Source: Thermoanaerobaculia bacterium
Lineage (GTDB): Bacteria > Acidobacteriota > Thermoanaerobaculia > Multivoradales > Multivoraceae
Assembly: GCA_022824725.1 (NCBI GenBank)
Contig: JAJDZH010000352.1
Location: forward strand, 1 to 38,494
Reading direction: 5' to 3'
DNA length: 38,494 bases
Of the stretch, positions 14,202-28,320 are shown in pieces. Position numbers and translations under genes: made by a program. Within the stretch, counting starts at the first letter, position 1, and each line of letters begins with the position of its first letter. The notes below the pieces were generated by a model that saw nothing but the letters and a program-made list of their open reading frames with translations, had not been told where the DNA came from and ran no database searches.

Positions 14202-15272
14202 TCAGACTTCGCCGATTCTGGCGGTGATGGCTCCGCCCATCTCCGCCGTGGACACGGCCGGCTGCCCTTCGGGCGCCAGATCGGCGGTACGGAATCCGTC
14301 GTCCAGCACCGCGGCGACCGCCGCCTCGACCCGGGCCGCCTCGGCTTCCAGGTCGAGGCTGTGGCGGAGCAGCATCGCGGCGCTCAGGATGGCGCCGATC
14401 GGGTTGGCGATGCCGCGGCCGGCGATATCGGGCGCGGAACCGTGGACCGGCTCGTACAGGCCCTGGCTGCCGGCGCCCAGGGACGCCGAAGGCAGCATGC
14501 CGAGCGAGCCGGCGAGGATCGCCGCCTCGTCGCTCAGGATGTCGCCGAACATGTTGCCGGCGAGGATCACGTCGTACTCCGCGGGCGAGCGCATCAACTG
14601 CATCGCGAAGGCGTCAACGAGGTGATGGCTGACCTCGACGTCCGGATACGCGCTGGCGACTTCCGTCACGGAACGCCGCCAGAGCCGCATCGAGGCCAGC
14701 ACGTTCGCCTTGTCGACCGACGCGACCTTGCCGCGGCGACCCCTCGCCGCCCGCAGCGCGACCCGGGCGACGCGCTCGACCTCGGCGGTGGAGTAGACGA
14801 GAGTGTCGTGCGCCACGTCGCCGTCGCCCTGCTCCTGGCGGGGGCCGAAGTAGATGCCGCCGGTCAGCTCCCGTACGAACAGCAGGTCGACGCTCCGCAG
14901 CAGTTCGGGCCTGAGCGGCGCGAACTCGATCAGCGACTCGAACACAGGTACCGGGCGCAGGTTGGCGAACAGGCCCATCTCGGCGCGCAGGTCGAGGAGT
15001 CCCTGCTCAGGCCGGAGTTCGGCGCTCGGGTCGGACCACTTCGGGCCACCGACGGCGCCGAGCAGCACCGCGTCGGCCGCCTTGCACGCGGCCAGCGTGG
15101 CTGGCGGCAGCGGGTTCCGGTAGTCGTCGATCGCGTTGCCGCCCATCGGCTGGGACTCGAGCTGGAACTCGTGTCCGCCGAGGTCGGCCACGACCTTCAG
15201 GACGCGGGACGCTTCCTCGGTGACTTCGGGTCCTATGCCGTCGCCGGGCAGGAGGACGATGTTCGCCTGCAT
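14202..15272 (-). CDS. leuB: 3-isopropylmalate dehydrogenase
   Basis: A 356-residue protein matching LeuB throughout. It has [11 protein letters not shown] at the N-terminus, [10 protein letters not shown], the arginine-bearing [32 protein letters not shown], the metal-binding DILSDEAA and the cofactor segment [18 protein letters not shown]. It oxidises 3-isopropylmalate with NAD+ to 2-oxoisocaproate in leucine synthesis. With citramalate synthase in the same window it probably also oxidises 3-methylmalate to 2-oxobutyrate for isoleucine. It is the last gene of the eight-gene ilv-leu operon, starting 14 bases after leuD, and is convergent with the LuxR-type gene. Confidence 0.96.
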
Positions 15273-15286
15273 GGGGAGTCGCTCGC

Positions 15287-15910
15287 TCAGCCCGACCGGG
15301 TGTCGAGCCGCGCCGGGTGGGCGGCCTCGAATGCCTGGATCGAGGACGCCTGGTTCAGCAGGTAGCCGAGCTGATCCGTGCCGTCGAGCAGGCAGCGACG
15401 GGCGAAGGGGTCGACCTCGAAGTTCGTCTCGCCGCCGGCGGGCAGGCTGAGGGTCTGCGCCTCGAGGTCGATCGTGACCTCGGCGGCCGGATCCGCGGCG
15501 ACGGCGTCGAACAACGACGCGGAGACTTCTTCGGTTACCGGTACGACGAGGAGGCCGTTCTTCAGCGAGTTGCTGCGGAAGATGTCGGCGAAGGAGGTGC
15601 TGATGACCGCGCGGAAGCCATAGCCGACGAGGGCCCAGGGCGCGTGCTCTCGCGAGCTGCCGCAGCCGAAGTTGTCGCCGGCGAGCAGGATTCTGGCGTC
15701 TGCGTGCTCGGCACGGTTCAGCACGAAGTCGGCGATGGGCTCGCCTTCGGGATCGCCGTCCCGGTAGCGCCAGCGGCAGAACAGGCCGGAGGCGAGGCCG
15801 CTGCGGTCTGTGACCTTCAGGTAGGACGCCGGGATGATCTGGTCCGTGTCGACGTTCTGGATCGGCAGCGGCGCCATCGTGCCGCTGAAGCGGGTGAAGC
15901 TCTTGCTCAC
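15287..15910 (-). CDS. leuD: 3-isopropylmalate dehydratase small subunit
   Basis: A 207-residue protein with the LeuD hallmarks: [20 protein letters not shown] near the N-terminus, [15 protein letters not shown], and [16 protein letters not shown]. It forms the isopropylmalate isomerase heterodimer with LeuC, moving the hydroxyl group of 2-isopropylmalate, and by inference also isomerises citramalate. The GTG at 15910 overlaps the leuC stop codon (GTGA), so translation is coupled, which suits a 1:1 complex. An internal ATG would remove the conserved FTRFSGT lead-in and is not favoured. It is followed 14 bases later by leuB. Confidence 0.96.
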
Positions 15911-17324
15911 GACAGCACCTCGCGGACGTCGGTGACGCGACCCGTGATCGCCGATGCGGCCGCGGTCAGGGGGCTGGCCAGGAAGGTGCGCCCGCCGGCG
16001 CCCTGCCGCCCCTCGAAGTTGCGGTTCGAGGTGCTGACGGCGTACTGGCCGGGCGCGAGCTGGTCGCCGTTCATCGCCAGGCACATGGAGCAGCCGGCTT
16101 CGCGCCACTCCGCGCCGGCGTCGACGAAGACCTGGGCGAGACCGTCCCGTTCGGCCTGCCGCTTGACGGCGTCGGAGCCGGGCACGATGAGCACCCGCAA
16201 GCCGTCGGCGACCTTGCGGCCGCGCAGCACGTTCGCCGCGGCCACCAGGTCGCTGTATCGCGAGTTCGTGCAGCTTCCGACGAAGACGACGTCGATCGGC
16301 TTGCCCTGAAGCTGCTGGCCGGGTTCGAGGGCCATGTAGTCGAGCGCCTTGCGGAAGGACGCCCGCTTCTCGGGTTCGATGGCGTCGTCTTCCGGTACCG
16401 CTCCCGCGATCGGGATCGCCATGCCGGGGTTCGTGCCGTACGTGACCATCGGCTCGAGCGCGGAGCCGTCGAGAGTCGTGGTCCGGTCGTAGGCCGCCCC
16501 GTCGTCGGTGGGCAGCGACCGCCAGTCGTCCACGGCCCCCTCCCAGGCGTCGCCGGCGGGCGCCATCGGGCGGCCTTCCAGGTACGCGAAGGTAACGTCG
16601 TCGGGGGCGATCAGGCCGGCGCGGGCGCCGCCCTCGATCGACATGTTGCAGACCGTCATCCGGCCTTCCATGTCGAGGGCGCGGATGGCTTCGCCGGTGT
16701 ACTCGAAGACGTGCCCCGTGCCGCCGCCGATGCCGAGCCGGGCGATCACCGCCAGGATGATGTCCTTGGCGACCACGCCCTCCTGCAGGCGGCCGTCGAT
16801 GCGCACCTCGTACGTCTTCGGCCGGTGCTGGAGCAGGCACTGGGTGGCGAGCACGTGGCCGACCTCGCTGGTGCCGATGCCGAAGGCGAGGGCCCCGACC
16901 GCGCCGTGCGTGCTCGTGTGGCTGTCGCCGCAGACGACGGTCATGCCGGGCTGGGTGGCGCCGAGCTCGGGGCCGATCACGTGGACGATGCCGCGGCGCT
17001 CGTCGCCCATCGCGTAGAGCGGGATCCCGTGCCGTTCGCAGTTCGCCAGCAACCGATCGAGTTGCGCGGAGCCCTCCGGGTCGAGCACGCGCAGCTTTGC
17101 CGTGTCGATCGAGGGATCGGTCGGCGTGGAGTGGTCCATCGTCGCCAGCGTCAGGTCGGGCCGCCGCACGGGGAGCCCGCGCTCGGCCAGCTCGGTGAAC
17201 GCCTGCGGCGAGGTCACCTCGTGCACCAGGTGCAGGTCGACATAGAGAGTCGCGGGCAGGCCCTCGGCCTCCGTGGCGACCAGGTGGCGCCGCCAGATCT
17301 TCTCGAACAGCGTCCTCGGTCGAC

Positions 17325-17328
<4 letters not shown>
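15907..17328 (-). CDS. leuC: 3-isopropylmalate dehydratase large subunit
   Basis: A 473-residue aconitase-family protein. The three iron-sulfur cysteines are present: Cys353 in [11 protein letters not shown], and Cys413 and Cys416 in GCSMCLAMN. Other landmarks are [36 protein letters not shown] and [14 protein letters not shown]. With LeuD it binds a [4Fe-4S] cluster and isomerises 2-isopropylmalate to 3-isopropylmalate. The same enzyme probably serves the citramalate route to isoleucine. ATG 17328 overlaps the leuA stop codon (ATGA), and the gene overlaps leuD by four bases, so leuA, leuC and leuD form one coupled block. Confidence 0.96.
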
Positions 17329-18953
<1,625 letters not shown>

Positions 18954-18955
18954 CG

Positions 18956-19957
18956 CTACACCTCCTTGGCGTCCAGGAACGGCATCATCCGACGCAGTTC
19001 CCGGCCGACCTCCTCGATCGGGTGGCTCCGCTCCCGCTGCCGCCGGGGATCGAAGCGCGGCCGGCCGTTCCTGTTCTCGGCGATCCAGTCGCGGGCGTAC
19101 GTCCCGTCCTGGATGTCGCTCAGGATCTTGTCCATCACCGCCCGCACGTCCTCCGTGATCATCTGATCGCCAGCGTGGTAGCCGCCGTGCTCGGCGGTAT
19201 CGGAGACGCTGTACCACATGTAGCCGAGCCCGCCTTCGTACATCAGGTCGACGATCAGCTTCAGTTCATGCAGGCATTCGAAGTACGCGACTTCCGGCTG
19301 GTAGCCGGCGGCGACCAGCTTCTCGAAGCCGGCGCGGACCAGGGCGGAGGCGCCGCCGCAGAGCACGATCTGTTCGCCGAAGAGGTCGGTCTCCGTTTCC
19401 TCGGCGAACGTGGTCTCGATCACTCCGGCGCGGGTGCAGCCGATGCCCTTCGCGTAGGCCAGGGCGTCGGCCAGGGCGCCGCCGCTGGCGTCGTTCTCGA
19501 CCGCGACCAGGCCCGGCGTGCCGGCGCCCTCCGTGAACACCTCCCGCACCCTGTGCCCCGGCGCCTTCGGCGCGACCAGGGACACGTCGACTTCCTCCGG
19601 CGCTCCGATCTCGCCGTAGCGGACGTTGAACCCGTGGGCGAACATCAGGGTGTTCCCCGGCTTGAGATTCGGGGCGAGGTCCTGCTCGTAGAGTTCGGCC
19701 TGCACCGTGTCGGGCGCCAGGACCATGATCATCTGCGCCCGCGCGGCCGCGGCCGCGTTGCCGAGCACCTCGAGGCCGTCGGCTTCGGCCTTGGCGGCGC
19801 TGCCGCTGCCTTCGCGCAGGCCGACAACGACGTCCACGCCGCTGTCGCGCAGGTTCAGCGCGTGGGCGTGGCCCTGGCTGCCGTAGCCGATCACCGCGAC
19901 GGTGCGGCCGTCGAGCCGGGAAAGGTCCGCGTCGTCGTCGTAGTAGAGCTTCGCCAT
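18956..19957 (-). CDS. ilvC: Ketol-acid reductoisomerase
   Basis: A 333-residue class I (short) ketol-acid reductoisomerase. The Rossmann start reads [21 protein letters not shown], followed by a [13 protein letters not shown] loop with Arg and Ser residues typical of NADPH preference. The C-terminal knotted domain has the metal and substrate motifs DLFGEQ and [17 protein letters not shown]. It rearranges and reduces acetolactate (valine/leucine) and acetohydroxybutyrate (isoleucine). It sits 39 bases after ilvN. A short GAGCG/CGCTC hairpin in that gap is weak and probably not a terminator. No ilvD, needed for the next step, is present in the window. Confidence 0.96.
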
Positions 19958-19996: not shown

Positions 19997-20542
19997 TCAG
20001 AGCACGTTGCTGCGCGCCGCGGCGCGGCTGCGGTTGGGCTTGAAGCCTTCGTCCTTCAGGGTGTGGCCGCCGCGCCCCAGCGCGATCATGCCGGTGCGCA
20101 CCATCTCGACGATGCCGAACGGACGCACGAGTTCGGTGAAGTTCTCGAGTTTCTCTTCCTCGCCGGTGATCTCCACCACCAGGCTTTCGGCGGAGACGTC
20201 GATGATCCGGGCGCGGAAGATGTCGCAGAGCTGGATCACCTCCCGCCGGTTGTCGGAGGTCGCCCGGACCTTGACCAGAGCCATCTCCCTCACCACCGAG
20301 GGCTGACTGTGGAGGTGGTCGACGTGGACGACGTCGACCAGCTTGTACAGGTTCTTGACCAGGCGGTCCGCCTCCGCGCTGTCGGACTCCATGACGATCG
20401 TCATCCGGGACATCTCGTCGCGCTGAGTGCGGCCGACGGACAGGCTGTCGATGTTGAAGCTGCGCCGCCGGAACAGGTTCGCCACCCGGGCCAGGACCCC
20501 GGGGCGATTCTCGACCAGCGCTGCCAGGATGTGTTTCGCCAT
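19997..20542 (-). CDS. ilvN: Acetolactate synthase small (regulatory) subunit
   Basis: A 181-residue protein with an N-terminal ACT domain (ALVENRPGVLARVANLFRRR, then FNIDSLSVGRT) and the C-terminal small-subunit domain (about 85-160). It activates the catalytic subunit and carries valine feedback inhibition in this family. The usual name is IlvN or IlvH; the two cannot be told apart here. It follows ilvB after 28 bases and precedes ilvC. The C-terminus has a basic tail (KPNRSRAAARSN) with no evident function. Confidence 0.95.
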   Translation of the reverse strand: MAKHILAALVENRPGVLARVANLFRRRSFNIDSLSVGRTQRDEMSRMTIVMESDSAEADRLVKNLYKLVDVVHVDHLHSQPSVVREMALVKVRATSDNRREVIQLCDIFRARIIDVSAESLVVEITGEEEKLENFTELVRPFGIVEMVRTGMIALGRGGHTLKDEGFKPNRSRAAARSNVL

Positions 20543-20570: not shown

Positions 20571-22502
20571 TCAGACCCCGAACCGGGAACCCAGGGCCGC
20601 TGCGGCAGCGGGCGCCTCTGGCTCGGTTCCTTCGGGTTCAGGGGTTGTCGCTGCTTCCGGGATCTCCGCCGCTGCCGCCCGTTCCCGCTGCTGCCGCTCG
20701 AACTCCGCCGGGGTGGGCCGGCGGATCATGTCGTCGAGGTCGGCGCCTGCCGGCACCATGGGAAAGACGATCTCTTCCTTCTCGACGACGAAGTCGATCA
20801 GGGTCGGTCCGGCTGTCTGCGCGCGCGAGGCGTTGACCGCCTCTTCGATCTGGCCGCGCTCGGTGACGCGAACGGTCGGGATGCCGTAGGCCTCCGCGAG
20901 CTTGCAGAAGTCCGGGTTGACCATTGGCGTCTGGTTGTAGCGCTCCTCGTAGAAGAACTCCTGCCACTGGCGGACCATGCCGAGGAAGCCGTTGTTGATG
21001 ATCGCGATGTGGACGTTGACCCGCTCCTGGACCGCGGTGGCGAGTTCCATCATCGTCATCTGGAAGCCGCCGTCGCCAACGATGGCCCACACTTCCTGGT
21101 CGGGGCGGGACATCTTGGCGCCGATCGCCGCCGGCAGGCCGAAGCCCATCGTTCCCAGGCCGCCGCTGGTGATCAGGCTGTGCGGCCGTTCGTGCTGGTA
21201 GTACTGGGCCTCCCACATCTGGTGCTGGCCGACATCGGTGACGGTGATGGCTCCGCCCGCGGTGAACTCGAACAGGTCGCGGATGACCTGGGCGCCGAGC
21301 AGCTTGCCTTCGGGCACCGCCGGGTGCTGGGGCGCCTCGGCCGGCCGCACGATCTCACGCAACTCGGAGTCCGCCCGCCACTCGGCGATGCGGTCGAACC
21401 AGGCCTCGTTCGGCCGCCGCTCGACCCGGTCGAGCAATTGCCGCAGGACCTCGCCGAGGTCGCCGACGATGCCGACGTCGACGGTCACGTTCTTGTTGAT
21501 CTCGGAGGGGTCGATGTCGACGTGGATCTTGCGCGAGTCCCGGGCGTAGGTCGCCAGGTTGCCGGTCACCCGGTCGTCGAAGCGCATGCCCAGGGCGATC
21601 AGCAGGTCGGCCTGCTGGATCGCGTGGTTCACCTCGGCGCCGCCGTGCATTCCCATCATTCCGAGGCAGAGCGGGTGCTGCTCGGAGATCGCGCCCTTGC
21701 CGAGCAGGGTCAGGGCGATCGGAATCTGCGCCTTCTCCGCCAGTTGCGCGAGCTCCTCGTTGGCGCCCGCCATCGAGATGCCGTGCCCGGCCAGGATGAT
21801 CGGCCGCTCCGAATCGCGGATCAACTCCAGGGCCGCGGCGACCTGGCGCGCCCTTGCCGTCTTCGGCGGGCTGTAGCCGGCGAGTTGAATCGGCTCCGTC
21901 GGGTAGACGAACTCGGCTTCCTGGATCTGGACGTCCTTGGGAATGTCGACCAGCACCGGACCGGGCCGCCCGGTCCGGGCGATATGAAACGCCTCGCGCA
22001 TGACCTCGGGCAGTTCGTCGATGCTCGTCACCAGGTAGTTGTGCTTGGTGATCGGGAGGGTGATGCCGGTGACGTCCGTCTCCTGGAAGGCGTCGCTGCC
22101 GATGGCGCCGGTGGGGACCTGTCCCGTGATGCAGACGATGGGAGACGAGTCCATCATCGCCGTGGCGATGCCGGTGACGAGGTTCGTCGCGCCGGGGCCG
22201 CTGGTCGCCATCGCCACGCCGACCTTGCCGGTGGCGCGGGCGTAGCCGTCAGCCATGTGCGACGCGCCCTGTTCGTGGCGGGTCAGCACGTGATGGAGTT
22301 GCGGGTACCTGGTCAGGGCGTCGTAGGTGGGCAGGATGGCCCCGCCCGGGTAGCCGAAGACGATGTCGACTCCCTCGTGCAGCAGGCACTCGCACACGAT
22401 TTCGGCGCCGGTCAGCACGACGGCGTCGGCGCCCCCATCCGGCGGGTTCACTGCCTCCGGGTTCACTGCCTCTCGGTTCGTTGCGGCGTCTTCGTTGCTC
22501 AT
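20571..22502 (-). CDS. ilvB: Acetolactate synthase large (catalytic) subunit
   Basis: A 643-residue ThDP-dependent enzyme. Its core matches acetohydroxyacid synthase: VFGYPGGAILPTYDAL, the glutamate-bearing HVLTRHEQGASHMADGYAR, FAD-domain segments, and the ThDP motif starting VGDGGFQMTMMELAT and ending IINNG. It joins two pyruvates, or pyruvate and 2-oxobutyrate, in the first shared step to valine, leucine and isoleucine. It is about 70 residues longer than usual. There is a 28-residue N-terminal extension encoded partly by a 15-base tandem repeat, and a C-terminal tail rich in Ala, Glu and Pro. ATG 22502 is assumed; starts closer to VVLTGAEIVCECL would remove the repeat, but no better start codon with a ribosome site was found. 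Confidence 0.95.
   Translation of the reverse strand: MSNEDAATNREAVNPEAVNPPDGGADAVVLTGAEIVCECLLHEGVDIVFGYPGGAILPTYDALTRYPQLHHVLTRHEQGASHMADGYARATGKVGVAMATSGPGATNLVTGIATAMMDSSPIVCITGQVPTGAIGSDAFQETDVTGITLPITKHNYLVTSIDELPEVMREAFHIARTGRPGPVLVDIPKDVQIQEAEFVYPTEPIQLAGYSPPKTARARQVAAALELIRDSERPIILAGHGISMAGANEELAQLAEKAQIPIALTLLGKGAISEQHPLCLGMMGMHGGAEVNHAIQQADLLIALGMRFDDRVTGNLATYARDSRKIHVDIDPSEINKNVTVDVGIVGDLGEVLRQLLDRVERRPNEAWFDRIAEWRADSELREIVRPAEAPQHPAVPEGKLLGAQVIRDLFEFTAGGAITVTDVGQHQMWEAQYYQHERPHSLITSGGLGTMGFGLPAAIGAKMSRPDQEVWAIVGDGGFQMTMMELATAVQERVNVHIAIINNGFLGMVRQWQEFFYEERYNQTPMVNPDFCKLAEAYGIPTVRVTERGQIEEAVNASRAQTAGPTLIDFVVEKEEIVFPMVPAGADLDDMIRRPTPAEFERQQRERAAAAEIPEAATTPEPEGTEPEAPAAAAALGSRFGV
22445..22489. 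repeat. 15-base tandem repeat inside the ilvB N-terminal region
   Basis: Two near-identical 15-base units (GGTTCACTGCCTCCG, then GGTTCACTGCCTCTC) and a decayed third copy lie in frame. They encode EAVNP-like repeats in the IlvB N-terminal extension. This looks like slippage-generated length variation in a disordered leader. Confidence 0.7.
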
Positions 22503-22516
22503 CTCGGCCTCCTCGC

Positions 22517-23473
22517 TCAGCCGGCCAGGGGCTTCGCGGCCTCCTGCAGCCGGGGTACCTGGGTGAGCCAGTTGTGGCGGTCGGGGAGGCGGCCCTCGAC
22601 CAGCCCGAAGAACTCCTCCTGGAGGTGGTGCGTGATCTCACCGCGCGTGCCGCTGCCGATCGGGATCCGGTCCACGGAGCGCACCGGGCTCACTTCGGCC
22701 GCCGTACCGGTCATGAACAGCTCGTCGGCGAGATAGAGCTCTTCACGGGCGATCGGCTGGAAGCGGACGTCGTACTTGAGGTCGCGGGCGATCGTGATGA
22801 CCGAGTCCCTGGTGATGCCGCCCAGGATCGAGTTGTAGAGCGGCGGCGTGTAGATCACACCGTCCCTGATCAGGAACAGGTTCTCGCCGGCGCCCTCGCA
22901 GACCAGGCCGCGGTCGTCGAGCATGATGCCCTCCGCGTAGCCGTGCTCGCGCGCCTCGATGGACACGAACTGGTTCGTCACATACTGCCCGCTGATCTTG
23001 CCCAGCGGCACGGCCGTGTTCGAGTTGAAGCGCCGCCAGGAACTGATCGCGGCGTCCACGCCCTGTTCGATCGCCTCCTCGCCGAGGTAGCGCCCCCAGC
23101 GGACCGCGTAGATGGCCAGTCTCGAACTGCAGGAGGTCGGGTTGAGGCCCATCTCCTCGTTGCCCCGGTAGATCAGCGGCCGGATGTAGCACGACTCGAG
23201 ACGGTTGCGGCCCACCGCCTCGATGCAAAGCTCCTCGACCTGGTCCTGCGTGTAGCCGGGTTCCATGCGCATGATCCTGCAACTGTCGAACAGGCGCCGG
23301 ACGTGCGGGCCGAGGCGGAAGATCGCAGTCGTCTCACCCGTGTCGTAGGCGCGAATGCCCTCGAACACCGACGAGCCGTAGTGCAGGCCGTGGGTGGTGA
23401 GGTGGACGGTCGCCTCGTCCCAGGGTTTCCACTGGTCGTCGATCCAGATCCACTCCGATCGTTCTATGGGCAT
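22517..23473 (-). CDS. ilvE: Branched-chain amino acid aminotransferase
   Basis: A 318-residue fold-type IV PLP aminotransferase. Landmarks are WIDDQWKPWDEATVHLTTHGLHYGSSVFEGIRAYDT at the N-terminus (given in part), the PLP-lysine region GKISGQYVTNQ, EGAGENLFLI and a TGTAAEVSPV segment. It exchanges amino groups between glutamate and the 2-oxo acids of valine, leucine and isoleucine, the final step for all three. It is the first structural gene of the operon. ATG 23473 is preceded by GGAG eight bases upstream and lies 25 bases after a strong intrinsic terminator, so its expression depends on transcriptional read-through of the leader. The ilvB gene follows 14 bases later. Confidence 0.95.
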   Translation of the reverse strand: MPIERSEWIWIDDQWKPWDEATVHLTTHGLHYGSSVFEGIRAYDTGETTAIFRLGPHVRRLFDSCRIMRMEPGYTQDQVEELCIEAVGRNRLESCYIRPLIYRGNEEMGLNPTSCSSRLAIYAVRWGRYLGEEAIEQGVDAAISSWRRFNSNTAVPLGKISGQYVTNQFVSIEAREHGYAEGIMLDDRGLVCEGAGENLFLIRDGVIYTPPLYNSILGGITRDSVITIARDLKYDVRFQPIAREELYLADELFMTGTAAEVSPVRSVDRIPIGSGTRGEITHHLQEEFFGLVEGRLPDRHNWLTQVPRLQEAAKPLAG

Positions 23474-23498: not shown

Positions 23499-23528
23499 AA
23501 AAAAGCCCCCAGGCGTTGCTGGGGGCTT
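23499..23528 (-). terminator. Intrinsic terminator of the ilv-leu attenuator
   Basis: On the minus strand a perfect 10-base stem, AAGCCCCCAG with CTGGGGGCTT, closes a six-base loop and runs into six T residues. It stands between the leader reading frame and ilvE, inside the transcription unit, which marks it as a regulatory (attenuator) terminator rather than an end of operon. Confidence 0.9.
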
Positions 23529-23556
23529 GAAGTCGCTCAGTTTCCTGTTGGTGCGC

Positions 23557-23625
23557 CTAGTTAGCCCCCTGGGTCACAAGGACCAGGACCAGAATCAGCA
23601 GCAGAAGGACGGCGGGGGTAGTCAT
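23557..23625 (-). CDS. ilvL: Branched-chain amino acid leader peptide
   Basis: A 22-codon reading frame from ATG 23625 to TAG 23557. Residues 6-17 are VLLLLILVLVLV: seven Leu, four Val and one Ile in an unbroken run. The stop lies 28 bases before the attenuator terminator. The peptide is not expected to function itself; its translation senses charged Leu/Val/Ile tRNAs. Codons 19-21 contain GGGGGCT, which can pair with the terminator's 5' arm. A ribosome stalled early in the run leaves this free and allows read-through, while one reaching the stop covers it and lets the terminator form. No Shine-Dalgarno precedes the ATG; AATCCT, exactly six bases upstream, could serve as a leaderless -10, competing with the TTGACA promoter 50 bases further up. 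Confidence 0.85.
   Translation of the reverse strand: MTTPAVLLLLILVLVLVTQGAN
23563..23569 (-). promoter_or_regulatory. Antiterminator arm within ilvL
   Basis: GGGGGCT on the minus strand spans the last base of codon 19 to codon 21 of the leader. It is complementary over seven bases to AGCCCCC at 23521-23527, the promoter-proximal arm of the terminator. Pairing would exclude the terminator. It duplicates the GGGGGCT of the terminator's distal arm. Confidence 0.7.
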
Positions 23626-23671
23626 GGCGTAAGGATTCTGTTGATCTACCGGGCGGCAGGTCGTGCGAGGG

Positions 23672-23701
23672 AGCGTAGGAGAGGACGGGAGCGGCTGTCA
23701 A
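23672..23701 (-). promoter_or_regulatory. Predicted promoter of the ilv-leu operon
   Basis: A perfect -35 TTGACA (23701-23696) is followed after 18 bases by TACGCT (23677-23672), a three-of-six -10 with the conserved TA and final T. Transcription would begin near 23665, about 40 bases before the leader ATG. Confidence 0.5.
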
Positions 23702-23794: not shown

Positions 23795-26734
23795 GTGAAG
23801 CTGTTTCCACGCCTCGAGTTCCATCGCACCGGGATTGGCCTCCTCCCCGACCCCCACGACCCGGAGCCCGGTTCGGCCGTTCATCTGGCCAGGGTGGCCG
23901 GGTCGAAGCGGCCGCTGACGTTCTGCAGTTGCTCCACGGGCCGGCGCAGCGGATGCCGCCACCTCAAGCAGCTCGAGGGTCAGATCCGGGAACTCCACCA
24001 GGTCACCGGATGTAGCTGGTTCGACCTCTTCGCTCACAGCGGCTGGTTCCGGCTGGCCCAGACTCTGTTCGAGGAGCGTCTCCCGGCGGCTTCGGAATGC
24101 CTCGTGCTGCAGGAAACGCCCGACGATCCGATTCGCCTGTTCGGTCCAGGCGGAGTGGAGGTCCTTCGCTACCTTGAGCAGGCGCCGGCAACGGTTCGGT
24201 TTCTGGAACGGATCGGGAAGCTCTCGGGCGGCGTGTCGACCGCGGATCGGTCGGGTCTGCTGGAGCGGCTGTCGACGTTCATGCGGACACCCGAGGAACA
24301 GCATCTGAACAAGGCCGGAATGCAGACGAACCGGCAGTTCTTCGAGGGCAGTCTCTGGTTCCGCGTTGCCTACCACGCCCTGAGGGAGTTCGGCGATATC
24401 TCCGGCGGCAGAGCCGAAACGAACGGAGCGACGGTGAGACTCGAGCCGTCAATCGAGCTCTCCAACGGCACGTTCTTCCTGGCGGTCCGCACGGGCTCGG
24501 GTGGGCCGGACCTGCTTCAGATCGCCGTTCCGCGTGGCCGGGTGGACGCTGCGCTGGCGTTCCTCGCGGAAACGGGGCAGACCTCGGCGGTTCCCCTGTC
24601 GGCCGCGGATCTCCTCCACGTCGGCCCCGACACCAGGATCGAGAAGGAAAACCAGCTCGAGATACTGCGCCTGGCCGCGGAGGGGGAGGACGTCCTCGAC
24701 GAGAAGCGGCGCGAGCGCTTCCAGTATGGCGAGCTGGTCTTTCTCGAGGAGTTGGAGGTCCTCGTCCGGCGCGCGGATCGCAGTGAGGGGGGCTGGCGTG
24801 AGCCCGCCGCCATCGATCTCGGACCGGCGCGGGTGCCGACCTTCCGGACCGTGCCGCCGATCGAGGAACCCGAGCCGGTCCTGACCGAGAGTCCGCTGGC
24901 CGCTATCGGGATCCTGACCGAGTTCGACTACATCGAGATCGAGCCGGACGGAGACGAGTCGCTTTCGATCCGCTATGGCTTCGGCGACAGTGACGTGAGT
25001 CTCGGGGAACTCCTGGCAGCGAGGGGTGCCGGCCTGCCGTACCTCGAAACAGCGTCGGGCTGGATCGATCTCAACGCGCCGGCGCTCAGGAACCTCGGAT
25101 CGCTGCCTGCTCAGGCGAGAGCGCGTGCCGAGGGCGCCGGCGGCAATGGCGACTCCGCCAGTCTCCGTCTCTCATCGGCCGAGTTGCTGCGGCTGCAGGC
25201 TTCGAGTACGGCGCCGATCCGCGTCGAGGGCGAAGGCAGCCGTCATGACTTCCTGCGCCGCTTCCTGGAGCTCCGGCCGGCCGATCCGATGGTGAGTCCT
25301 TCGGGGCTCACGAGCGTCCTGCGTCCCTACCAGAAGCTAGGTGTCGAATGGCTGAAGTTCCTGTACGAGAACGATCTCGCTGGTCTTCTCTGCGACGACA
25401 TGGGCCTGGGGAAGACGCACCAGGCGATGGCGCTGATGGTCATCCTGCGGGAGCAACTGGGGGTCGACGAGCCGTTTCTCGTTGTCTGCCCCCGCACCGT
25501 CATCAGCCACTGGCGCAACAAGCTCCGGGAGTACGCGCCGGGATTGAGCCCGGCGTACTACCACGGACCGCAACGCAATCTCGGGGAATCGCTGGCTCAT
25601 GGCGACGTGATCCTCACGTCCTATGGCGTGATGCGGAATGACGTCGAGCGTTTCGGCGAACGGCGCTGGGGCCTCATCGTGTTCGACGAGGTGCAGCAGA
25701 TCAAGAACCGGAGCACCCAGGGCTACCGTGCCGCCGTTGCGCTCAGGGCCCGGATGAAACTGGGGCTGACCGGCACGCCGATCGAGAACTCGCTCACCGA
25801 GTTGAAGGGCCTGTTCGATCTCGTGCTGCCGGGCTACCTTGGCGGCGACGACACCTATCTGGATGTCCTCGGGACGAACGAACTCGACGCCGATTCCTGG
25901 TACGCGGTGAATCTGCGGCGTCTGACCGCACCCTTCGTGCTCCGCCGGGTGAAGACCGCCGTGCTGGACGAGCTGCCGGAGAAGATCGAGGACGTGCGCA
26001 CCTGCCGCCTGAGCCCCGAGCAGTTCGACCTGTACCGCCAGACGATCGAAACGAAGGGCGTGACGCTGATGAACGCCTTGCGGAGCGAGCGGGGCGCGCT
26101 TCCCTACATCCACATCTTCGCGCTGCTGAACATGCTGAAGCAGATCTGCGATCATCCCGCGTTGGCGGTCGGCGATCTGGACCGCTACGAGAACTACGAA
26201 TCGGGCAAATGGGACCTGTGCAAGGAGCTCCTCGAGGAGAGCTTCGACAGTGGCCAGAAGGTCGTCGTCTTCAGCCAGTACCTGGGGATGATCGGCATCC
26301 TGGAGCGCCACCTGACGAAGCTCGGCATCGAGTTCGTCACGCTGACGGGTTCCACCCGCGAGCGCGGCAAGGTCGTCGACCGCTTCAACGACGACGACGA
26401 CTGCCGCGTCTTTCTGGGCAGCCTGAAGGCGGGCGGCACCGGCATCGACTTGGTCGGCGGGTCGGTCGTCATCCACTACGACCGCTGGTGGAACGCGGCT
26501 CGCGAGGACCAGGCGACGGACCGCCTGTACCGGATCGGCCAGAAGCGGGCGGTCCACGTCTTCAAGCTGATCACCGAGGAAACGCTCGAGGAACGCATCG
26601 CCGCCATCATCGACCGCAAGCGCCGTCTCATGGAGAGCGTGGTGCAGGAGGACGACCCCCAGCTCAAGAAGATCTTCTCGCGCGAGGAGTTGATCGAGCT
26701 GCTGCAGGGGCCGGGCCTCGACGAGCCGGCCTGA
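23795..26734 (+). CDS. SNF2-family DNA-dependent ATPase with SWIM zinc finger
   Basis: A 979-residue protein. A SWIM-type zinc motif CxCx7CxH (Cys44, Cys46, Cys54, His56) opens it. A long, poorly conserved middle region follows, then a Swi2/Snf2 ATPase in the last 480 residues. Motif I reads DDMGLGKTHQ at about 534-543, motif II DEVQ near 630, and motif VI DRLYRIGQKRA near 909-920. The common forms are DEMGLGKT and DEAQ/DEAH, so both walls carry mild variants. Such bacterial proteins are thought to remodel protein-DNA complexes in transcription or repair; the partner here is unknown. GTG 23795 is the first usable start, without a clear ribosome site. It is divergent from the ilv operon and 26 bases ahead of cimA. 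Confidence 0.93.
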   Translation: MKLFPRLEFHRTGIGLLPDPHDPEPGSAVHLARVAGSKRPLTFCSCSTGRRSGCRHLKQLEGQIRELHQVTGCSWFDLFAHSGWFRLAQTLFEERLPAASECLVLQETPDDPIRLFGPGGVEVLRYLEQAPATVRFLERIGKLSGGVSTADRSGLLERLSTFMRTPEEQHLNKAGMQTNRQFFEGSLWFRVAYHALREFGDISGGRAETNGATVRLEPSIELSNGTFFLAVRTGSGGPDLLQIAVPRGRVDAALAFLAETGQTSAVPLSAADLLHVGPDTRIEKENQLEILRLAAEGEDVLDEKRRERFQYGELVFLEELEVLVRRADRSEGGWREPAAIDLGPARVPTFRTVPPIEEPEPVLTESPLAAIGILTEFDYIEIEPDGDESLSIRYGFGDSDVSLGELLAARGAGLPYLETASGWIDLNAPALRNLGSLPAQARARAEGAGGNGDSASLRLSSAELLRLQASSTAPIRVEGEGSRHDFLRRFLELRPADPMVSPSGLTSVLRPYQKLGVEWLKFLYENDLAGLLCDDMGLGKTHQAMALMVILREQLGVDEPFLVVCPRTVISHWRNKLREYAPGLSPAYYHGPQRNLGESLAHGDVILTSYGVMRNDVERFGERRWGLIVFDEVQQIKNRSTQGYRAAVALRARMKLGLTGTPIENSLTELKGLFDLVLPGYLGGDDTYLDVLGTNELDADSWYAVNLRRLTAPFVLRRVKTAVLDELPEKIEDVRTCRLSPEQFDLYRQTIETKGVTLMNALRSERGALPYIHIFALLNMLKQICDHPALAVGDLDRYENYESGKWDLCKELLEESFDSGQKVVVFSQYLGMIGILERHLTKLGIEFVTLTGSTRERGKVVDRFNDDDDCRVFLGSLKAGGTGIDLVGGSVVIHYDRWWNAAREDQATDRLYRIGQKRAVHVFKLITEETLEERIAAIIDRKRRLMESVVQEDDPQLKKIFSREELIELLQGPGLDEPA

Positions 26735-26760: not shown

Positions 26761-28320
26761 ATGACCACCAGGATCGAGCTGTACGACACGACACTTCGCG
26801 ACGGGACCCAGCGGGAGAACATCTCCCTGTCGCTGGCGGACAAGCTGGCGATTGCCAGGCGGCTGGATACGTTCGGTATCCCCTACATCGAGTGCGGCTG
26901 GCCCGGCTCGAATCCGAAGGACGCCGACTTCTTCGAGGCCATCCGCGAGGTCGAACTCGAACAGGCGAGAATCTGTGCCTTCGGCGCCACCCGACGCAAG
27001 CACAGCGCCTGCAACCGCGACGGCAACGTCCAGGCGCTGGTCGCCGCGGAGACGCCCACCGTCACGCTGGTCGGCAAGAGCTGGGACCTGCACGTCGAGA
27101 AGGTGCTCGAGACCGACGCGCGAGAGAACGAGGCGATGATCGGCGACACGGTCGGCTACCTCAAGGAGCTGGGCCGCGAGGTGATCTACGACGCGGAGCA
27201 CTTCTTCGACGGTCTGGCCGGGAACCCCGAGTGCGCGCTCGGCACGTTGCGCGCGGCGGCCGCGGCGGGCGCCGATTACATCGTGCTCTGCGACACGAAC
27301 GGCGGCACGCTGCCGTGGCAGATCGAAGCGGGGATCGACGCGGCGCGCGCGGAACTCGGTCCGGAGGTCCGGATCGGCATTCACACGCACGATGACGGCG
27401 GCTGCGGCGTCGCCAACTCCCTGGCGGCCGTGCGGGCCGGCGCGGTGATGGTCCAGGGCACGATCAACGGCTACGGCGAACGGGTGGCGAACGCGAACCT
27501 GGTGACCATCGTGCCGGACCTGCAGTGCAAGATGGGGTTCTCCTGCGTCCCCGACGAGAGCCTGCGCGAGTTGACCTCTCTGTCGCGATACGTCGCCGAG
27601 GTGGCGAACATCGCCCACGACGACCACCTGCCCTACGTCGGGCGGAGTGCTTTCGCCCACAAGGGCGGCATCCATGTCGCGGCGATGCTCAAGGAACCGA
27701 CCAGCTACCAGCACGTCGAGCCGGGGGTGGTCGGCAACGAGATGCGGACCGTGGTATCCGAACTCTCGGGCCGCGGCAACATCGCTCATCTCGCGGCGGG
27801 CGCCGGGATCGCCGAGACTCCCCACGCGCGCGAGGTGCTGTACAAGGTCAAGGAGCTGGAGAATCGCGGCTACAGCTTCGAGGCCGCCGAGGCGTCCGTC
27901 GAGCTCATGCTGCGCCGGGCGGAACCCGGCTACGAGGCGCCTTTCCGCCTGATCGACTTTCTCACTGTTGTCGAACACCGCGACGGTCGCGGTCTGGTCG
28001 CGGAGGCGACCGTCAAGGTCGAGGTGCCGGGCGGCGCCATTGCTCACACGGCGGCGGAAGGCAATGGACCGGTGAATGCCCTGGCCCACGCCCTGCGCAA
28101 GGCGCTGGAGCCGCACTATCCGCAACTGTCCGGGATGCGGCTGGCCGACTACAAGGTCCGTATTCTGGACAGCGCCCACGGAACGGCCGCCACGACCCGC
28201 GTGCTCGTCGATTTCGTCGCCGACGGCGAGCGCTGGACCACGGTAGGCGCGGGCACGAACATCATCGAGGCAAGCTGGGAGGCGCTCTCCGACGCGATCG
28301 AGTTCGGACTGACGGCCTGA
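26761..28320 (+). CDS. cimA: (R)-citramalate synthase
   Basis: A 519-residue enzyme of the isopropylmalate/homocitrate synthase superfamily. It has YDTTLRDGTQRENISLS, CGWPGSNPKD, the metal motif HTH at residues 208-210 (GIHTHDDGGCGVANS), GYGERVANANL, and a C-terminal regulatory domain. The GTQRENISLS start and PGSNPKD segment identify the long CimA group rather than LeuA. It condenses pyruvate with acetyl-CoA to citramalate, the threonine-independent route to 2-oxobutyrate and isoleucine. The next steps use LeuC, LeuD and LeuB, encoded nearby in the attenuated operon. It lies 26 bases after the SNF2 gene, perhaps co-transcribed, although GGTAGT six bases before the ATG could be a leaderless -10. 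Confidence 0.93.
   Translation: MTTRIELYDTTLRDGTQRENISLSLADKLAIARRLDTFGIPYIECGWPGSNPKDADFFEAIREVELEQARICAFGATRRKHSACNRDGNVQALVAAETPTVTLVGKSWDLHVEKVLETDARENEAMIGDTVGYLKELGREVIYDAEHFFDGLAGNPECALGTLRAAAAAGADYIVLCDTNGGTLPWQIEAGIDAARAELGPEVRIGIHTHDDGGCGVANSLAAVRAGAVMVQGTINGYGERVANANLVTIVPDLQCKMGFSCVPDESLRELTSLSRYVAEVANIAHDDHLPYVGRSAFAHKGGIHVAAMLKEPTSYQHVEPGVVGNEMRTVVSELSGRGNIAHLAAGAGIAETPHAREVLYKVKELENRGYSFEAAEASVELMLRRAEPGYEAPFRLIDFLTVVEHRDGRGLVAEATVKVEVPGGAIAHTAAEGNGPVNALAHALRKALEPHYPQLSGMRLADYKVRILDSAHGTAATTRVLVDFVADGERWTTVGAGTNIIEASWEALSDAIEFGLTA

Follow-up and report, generated by a model that had tools for sequence, protein, structure and literature searches.

A putative leader-peptide attenuator upstream of an eight-gene ilv-leu operon in the Acidobacteriota

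Background

The DNA considered here, a stretch of 38,494 nt that is referred to in its entirety as the window, raises the question of whether a short region between a SNF2-type helicase gene and ilvE senses branched-chain amino acids through the translation of a leader peptide, and in what kind of organism it does so. A preliminary description had proposed a complete ribosome-mediated attenuator at this position, ahead of eight ilv and leu genes in what looked like a non-proteobacterial genome. The phylum can be assigned from the nearest named relatives of the locus, whose ilvE genes are 92-98% identical and come from metagenome-assembled genomes (MAGs) filed as Acidobacteriota, with one (OX638294.1) filed as Thermoanaerobaculia; the host is a member of the Acidobacteriota, class Thermoanaerobaculia, and the expectation of a non-proteobacterial genome was therefore right. 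With a probability of roughly 0.95, judged from sequence comparisons, the region is a ribosome-mediated (leader-peptide) transcription attenuator controlling ilvE-ilvB-ilvN-ilvC-leuA-leuC-leuD-leuB. In the open-access literature no account of amino acid operons under leader-peptide attenuation was found for the Acidobacteriota, and priority is not certain.

Organisation of the leader region and the operon

The coordinates first given for the leader, the hairpin, the T tract and the distance to ilvE are correct to the base (Table 1), and the minus strand does encode the reported 22-residue peptide, residues 6-17 of which are all leucine, valine or isoleucine. The region lies between ilvE and the SNF2 gene, as had been stated, with the latter on the plus strand. 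The run VLLLLILVLVLV is the sole stretch of at least eight Ile, Leu or Val residues in the 38 kb window, all six frames considered, and no such run arose in 40 Markov simulations; it is not a product of chance. The terminator, AAGCCCCCAG-CAACGC-CTGGGGGCTT (23528-23503, minus strand), has a perfect 10-bp stem with T residues continuing to 23499, and is separated by 25 nt from the ilvE ATG at 23473.

The probable promoter coincides with the start of the block that is kept in relatives, whose sequence farther upstream differs. Its -10 hexamer matches at only three of six positions, under the threshold of the scanner; at the equivalent position in three loci from outside the family are found TTGACA-N18-TAGAGT (L025), TTGACA-N18-TAGGGT (L027) and TTGACC-N17-TATAGT (L029). 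There is no clear Shine-Dalgarno sequence before the leader ATG. The leader is approximately 165 nt long, most of it occupied by the ORF and the terminator, and folded as a whole it is no more stable than shuffled sequences (z = 0.06), as is expected when structures are mutually exclusive.

Seven of the eight operon genes were identified with NCBIfam models, while leuC was assigned instead by gene order and by the conservation of its frame (95-97% identity in the same-genus loci L032 and L033). Apart from the two overlaps listed in Table 1, the intergenic gaps are 2-39 nt. As the site before ilvE is the only terminator-like one on the minus strand between 13300 and 23800, it is likely that the eight genes share a single transcript. 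Beyond the SNF2 gene, the window also encodes a second LeuA-like enzyme (26761-28317, plus strand) with an HMGL-like and a LeuA dimerisation domain, possibly a citramalate synthase; LeuA-like matches lie upstream in L032, L033 and L035 too.

Table 1. Positions of the leader elements, the operon genes and the divergent neighbour in the window.
Feature	Coordinates	Strand	Basis and remarks
SNF2-type helicase gene	23795-26731	+	Divergent from operon
Probable sigma-70 promoter	23672-23701	-	TTGACA 23701-23696, 18-nt spacer, TACGCT 23677-23672
Leader ORF, 22 codons, MTTPAVLLLLILVLVLVTQGAN then stop	23557-23625	-	Sequence; ATG 23625-23623, TAG 23559-23557
Control codons 6-17, V L L L L I L V L V L V	23575-23610	-	12/12 Leu/Val/Ile
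Arm 2, putative antiterminator strand, CAGGGGGCT	23563-23571	-	CAG GGG GCT, codons 19-21; near-copy of arm 4, pairs with arm 3
Spacer, leader stop codon to terminator stem, 28 nt	23529-23556	-	Median 28 nt over 42 attenuators, range 17-44
Arm 3, terminator 5' arm, AAGCCCCCAG	23519-23528	-	Sequence
Arm 4, terminator 3' arm, CTGGGGGCTT	23503-23512	-	Sequence
T tract, six T	23499-23504	-	Sequence
ilvE, branched-chain aminotransferase	22517-23473	-	NCBIfam TIGR01122, 397 bits (cutoff 245.6)
ilvB, acetolactate synthase large subunit	20571-22502	-	TIGR00118, 760 bits; 14 nt past ilvE
ilvN, acetolactate synthase small subunit	19997-20542	-	TIGR00119, 190 bits
ilvC, ketol-acid reductoisomerase	18956-19957	-	TIGR00465, 431 bits
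leuA, 2-isopropylmalate synthase	17325-18953	-	TIGR00973, 664 bits; start 2 nt past ilvC
leuC, isopropylmalate dehydratase large subunit	15907-17328	-	Place in conserved ilv-leu gene order; conserved frame; ATGA overlap with leuA
leuD, isopropylmalate dehydratase small subunit	15287-15910	-	TIGR00171, 193 bits; GTGA overlap with leuC
leuB, 3-isopropylmalate dehydrogenase	14202-15272	-	TIGR00169, 485 bits

The predicted antiterminator and the proposed mechanism

Of the attenuator that was originally described as complete, the ORF, the terminator and the attenuation reading itself stand, but an antiterminator strand in the last leader codons had been overlooked. This strand, arm 2 (23571-23563), nearly copies the 3' arm of the terminator (CTGGGGGCT) and pairs with its 5' arm, AGCCCCCAG, across nine positions with one mismatch. 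It is the predicted antiterminator and the decisive element of the leader: lying within the ORF, it would be covered by a ribosome at the stop codon and mostly free if the ribosome were stalled in the Leu/Val/Ile run.

Comparison between lineages supports this pairing. Across 36 non-redundant lineages the native arm 2:arm 3 duplexes have a mean of -19.1 kcal/mol, against -15.3 kcal/mol with swapped partners, and none of 20,000 permutations was as good (p = 5 × 10-5). Matched changes are seen in the pairs GGGGGCT/AGCCCCC (window), GGGGGTT/AACCCCC (L122), GGGGGTC/GACCCCC (L125), TGGGCCGT/ACGGCCCG (L131) and CCGGGGGC/GCCCTCGG (L121). The 1:3 pairing, used as a control, was not significant (p = 0.28), nor was the 1:2 protector pairing significant as a general feature (p = 0.06-0.08), such that a protector hairpin is only suggested; it is a classic feature of the trp attenuator, and not a universal one. 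With the scan limited to the ORF end, where nearly all attenuators have a pairing arm, arm 2 falls within the ORF in every one of the 42 attenuators, a median of 11 control codons being upstream of the masking distance. This simple scan found no convincing arm 2 in L037 or in the second ilvD leader of L117, and in L167 it picked a pairing within the control codons. The I/L/V-rich frame of the 42 attenuators holds a mean of 9.9 such residues in 16, versus 0.6 and 2.7 in the other frames.

In the proposed mechanism, the supply of charged Leu-, Val- and Ile-tRNA would be sensed and would set the transcription of all eight genes. Were all three amino acids plentiful, the ribosome would reach the stop codon at 23559 and mask arm 2 (CAGGGGGCT), leaving arm 3 (AAGCCCCCAG) to pair with arm 4; the terminator would then form and transcription would end near 23499. 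Scarcity of any one of the three would stall the ribosome among the control codons. Provided that the front of the ribosome extends some 12 nt beyond the A site, stalls at most of these codons would leave arm 2 exposed to capture arm 3, in which case no terminator would form and RNA polymerase would read into ilvE.

By every sequence test the element appears to belong with the ribosome-mediated attenuators, the mechanism itself not being new. The ORF is rich in codons for the end products of the pathway (all 12 of codons 6-17 specify Leu, Val or Ile, ahead of ilv/leu genes, with constraint on the second codon position), an intrinsic terminator stands between it and the first structural gene, and the predicted antiterminator, mutually exclusive with that terminator, is placed where a ribosome could mask it (36 lineages, p = 5 × 10-5).

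Conservation within the genus

The alignment of regions upstream of ilvE in related genomes, proposed at the outset as a check, revealed that both frame and hairpin are conserved and that compensatory changes occur. Each of the other 20 genomes in the genus has the element ahead of ilvE, despite differing sequence far upstream, and the leader frame is retained in the same-genus loci L003-L021. Within the 12-codon run, variable columns are found at seven of the 12 first codon positions and nine of the 12 third positions, but at only one of the 12 second positions. In codons 2-12 of the run no second position changes, whereas 14 of the 22 first- and third-position columns do (Fisher p = 5 × 10-4). 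A T at position 2 defines the codon box for Leu, Ile, Val, Met and Phe; the constancy of this position while the other two vary implies that Leu, Val and Ile interchange while little else enters. With the exception of one relative (G019), the runs of this genus admit nothing else but a single Met codon and a Gly in first place.

The surrounding parts of the leader are more fluid. In L016-L021 the start has shifted upstream, giving a different and longer N-terminus, with the run, arm 2 and stop unchanged, while a one-base insertion in L010 changes the frame beside arm 2, with a new in-frame stop at nearly the same place. In G019 (L022/L035) the run is degenerate, part of it having been lost to proline. 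The G019 sequence OX638294.1 (L035, 5344-9925) contains a tandem triplication of a unit of approximately 1.5-1.6 kb, each with a copy of the leader and terminator and with a gene of about 380 aa that has a signal-peptide-like N-terminus; several control codons in these leader copies are now proline (LLLPIPVPVLAG), and arm 2 begins at the stop codon.

Upstream of argG, thrA and ilvD in this genus no comparable leader-terminator pair was found, with relatives' regions being read for thrA and ilvD, neither of which was detected in the window's own assembly (G000). Within this genus, the ilv-leu operon is hence the only one known to have such a predicted attenuator.

Comparison with known systems

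The likeness to enterobacterial ilv-type leaders that had been claimed is borne out, with the geometry of Escherichia coli thrL matching and that of ilvL essentially so. In thrL, which precedes thrABC, the control codons are followed by a closing stretch of the ORF, GGTGCGGGC TGA, in which the terminator's 3' arm (AGTGCGGGCT) is repeated, then by a short spacer and a terminator with a T tract, the same compact geometry as in the acidobacterial ilv-leu leader. The two even have the spacer sequence ACAGGAAAC in common, perhaps by chance. However, thrL senses Thr and Ile, and belongs to another pathway and another phylum. In ilvL, the Leu/Val/Ile-rich leader of ilvXGMEDA, the strand likely to act as antiterminator (CCGTGCGGGGCT) is within the ORF, downstream of the control codons, but the ORF continues for several codons past arm 2 and only ilv genes are controlled; E. 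coli leu has a separate leader, leuL, unlike the joint acidobacterial arrangement. The scores of a wider covariance model, R2, for ilvL (29.9 bits) and thrL (28.1 bits) in a 134-kb set are only supportive, as chance matches occur in the same range.

That one leader should precede both ilv and leu genes was presented as unusual: the eight genes do lie downstream, but a joint operon has a precedent in Staphylococcus aureus, in which a single leader peptide attenuator lies upstream of ilvD and the ilv-leu operon is under CodY control as well (PMC5794164). This Firmicutes system differs in its Leu-rich peptide and in an antiterminator proposed to pair with the poly-U tail (PMC5794164). The ilvB leaders of Corynebacterium, Mycobacterium and Streptomyces consist of a short Ile/Val/Leu ORF and a terminator before ilvBNC (PMC1262725; PMC11857589). 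These differ in that they serve ilvB operons only, with the ORF overlapping the candidate terminator in the 2005 analysis; codon substitutions in the S. coelicolor ilvB leader were without effect (PMC1262725; PMC11857589).

Versions for other amino acids

Leaders of the same plan, with other amino acids in the run, are found before other pathways. Five genomes of family f17 have leaders in which WWW(Y/C/Y-like) is followed by ...GGR(V/E)A.. and the stop, with GGAGGGC as arm 2, before trpB, and a WWWC leader occurs in one more genome, outside the class. Trp-leader attenuators in the Acidobacteriota, with WWW peptides, arm 2 GGAGGGC and the terminator AGCCCTCCGG or similar, were noted before trpB in L263 (G178), L269/L297 (G084), L294, L295, L296 and L308. 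In G057 (L169/L182) a Thr/Met-rich leader, MNRAMLTGTLMTPMMITTTPTSTGAI followed by a stop, and a terminator precede a fused aspartokinase-homoserine dehydrogenase, an arrangement similar to that of E. coli thrL. Short Arg-rich ORFs with terminators before argG, in three species of one genus (L212 in G033, L213 in G063 and L214 in G062), are candidate arginine attenuators. Peptide composition that tracks the downstream pathway in this way would be hard to explain except as codon sensing.

These versions bear on whether the ORF instead encodes a functional small membrane peptide or toxin that precedes ilvE by coincidence. The run is indeed very hydrophobic, and in some bacteria a leader peptide can have effects in trans, as is reported for peTrpL (PMC7298713). 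Yet the peptide sequence is not conserved, its N-terminus being replaced and lengthened even within the genus, Leu, Val and Ile interchange freely in it, and there is covariation between its final codons and the terminator; the leaders for Trp, Thr and Arg that stand before matching pathways, moreover, are not membrane peptides. A functional peptide of this kind is very improbable.

Distribution across the class, the phylum and beyond

A covariance model built from 11 leaders (R1) had matches in 43 of 149 genomes of the class, not all of which are ilv/leu leaders; candidates outside the genus were read individually. In our own tally, combining the covariance model with locus-level searches, ilv/leu leaders are present in 40 of the 43 class genomes having ilvB; in two of the three exceptions the site where a leader would be expected may fall beyond the contig end, and in the other ilvB is matched only distantly. 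Outside the family of the window, at least ten more have the layout, placed before ilvE, ilvD, ilvB or leuA. The first gene is ilvE in f1 and f2, ilvD in f6 and f12, ilvB in f13 and f14, and leuA in f2, f6 and f7. Using R2, made almost wholly of acidobacterial sequences, and reading of the matches, leaders before the same four genes were identified in further families of the phylum. Among MAGs of Chloroflexota (Anaerolineae), L037 has a clear Leu/Val/Ile leader upstream of ilvE, and L040 has a match there by model only.

Matches below approximately 35 bits include false positives, and weak ones were consequently counted only after the leader and downstream gene had been read. The main mimics are gene ends encoding hydrophobic C-termini (several of them IPTLGQWGM...RRR) followed by terminators, as at L171, L174, L175 and L176. 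Such cases, and the frequency of GC-rich hairpins with T tracts at gene ends in general, give some plausibility to the reading of the hairpin before ilvE as the ordinary terminator of an upstream transcript, with the ORF a chance occurrence. Against this, no gene ends at the hairpin, the I/L/V run has no second example in the window, and many families share the frame of the ORF, the copy in arm 2 and the location ahead of ilv/leu genes. Because the SNF2 gene is divergent, the hairpin cannot terminate that gene, and an upstream-gene terminator was rejected; the ordinary-terminator reading as a whole merits almost no credence.

Control of the terminator by a T-box or riboswitch, sensing tRNA or ppGpp in place of a translating ribosome, has parallels, since T-boxes control branched-chain genes in other bacteria. 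So too does a ppGpp riboswitch class (PMC8632094). Such control of the terminator is extremely unlikely here: neither the window nor ten related loci have an Rfam match at the gathering threshold, the leader of about 165 nt is largely taken up by ORF and terminator, and the pattern of conservation is codon-like. Searches of the window with the Rfam leader, riboswitch and T-box families gave only chance-level matches at E values up to 5, the best being to Phe_leader (19.7 bits, where the cutoff is 55), and these families were rejected as the identity of the element.

The predicted leader-peptide attenuator is of interest for the new phylum, the breadth of its distribution and the clean covariation. 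For organisms known mainly from metagenomes, it offers a concrete model of how an entire biosynthetic pathway may be regulated, based on leader ORFs so short that annotation can miss them. The lineage-wise covariation of the antiterminator, together with the Trp, Thr and Arg versions, constitutes a natural data set on how switches of this type originate, pass from one operon to another and alter their specificity. It is conceivable, if rather doubtful, that the compact attenuator is one widespread device shared by descent or transfer among Acidobacteriota, Chloroflexota and Proteobacteria, and not reinvented in each phylum; were this so, the device would travel along with ilv/leu operons, and codon changes would re-tune it to Trp, Thr or Arg.

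In two genomes of family f6, two full Leu/Val/Ile leader-terminator units stand in series before ilvD (L122, 14704-15262; L117, 15853-16551). Finally, a clear ilvB was found in only 43 of 148 genomes of the class Thermoanaerobaculia, which implies that many of its members may be auxotrophic for branched-chain amino acids.
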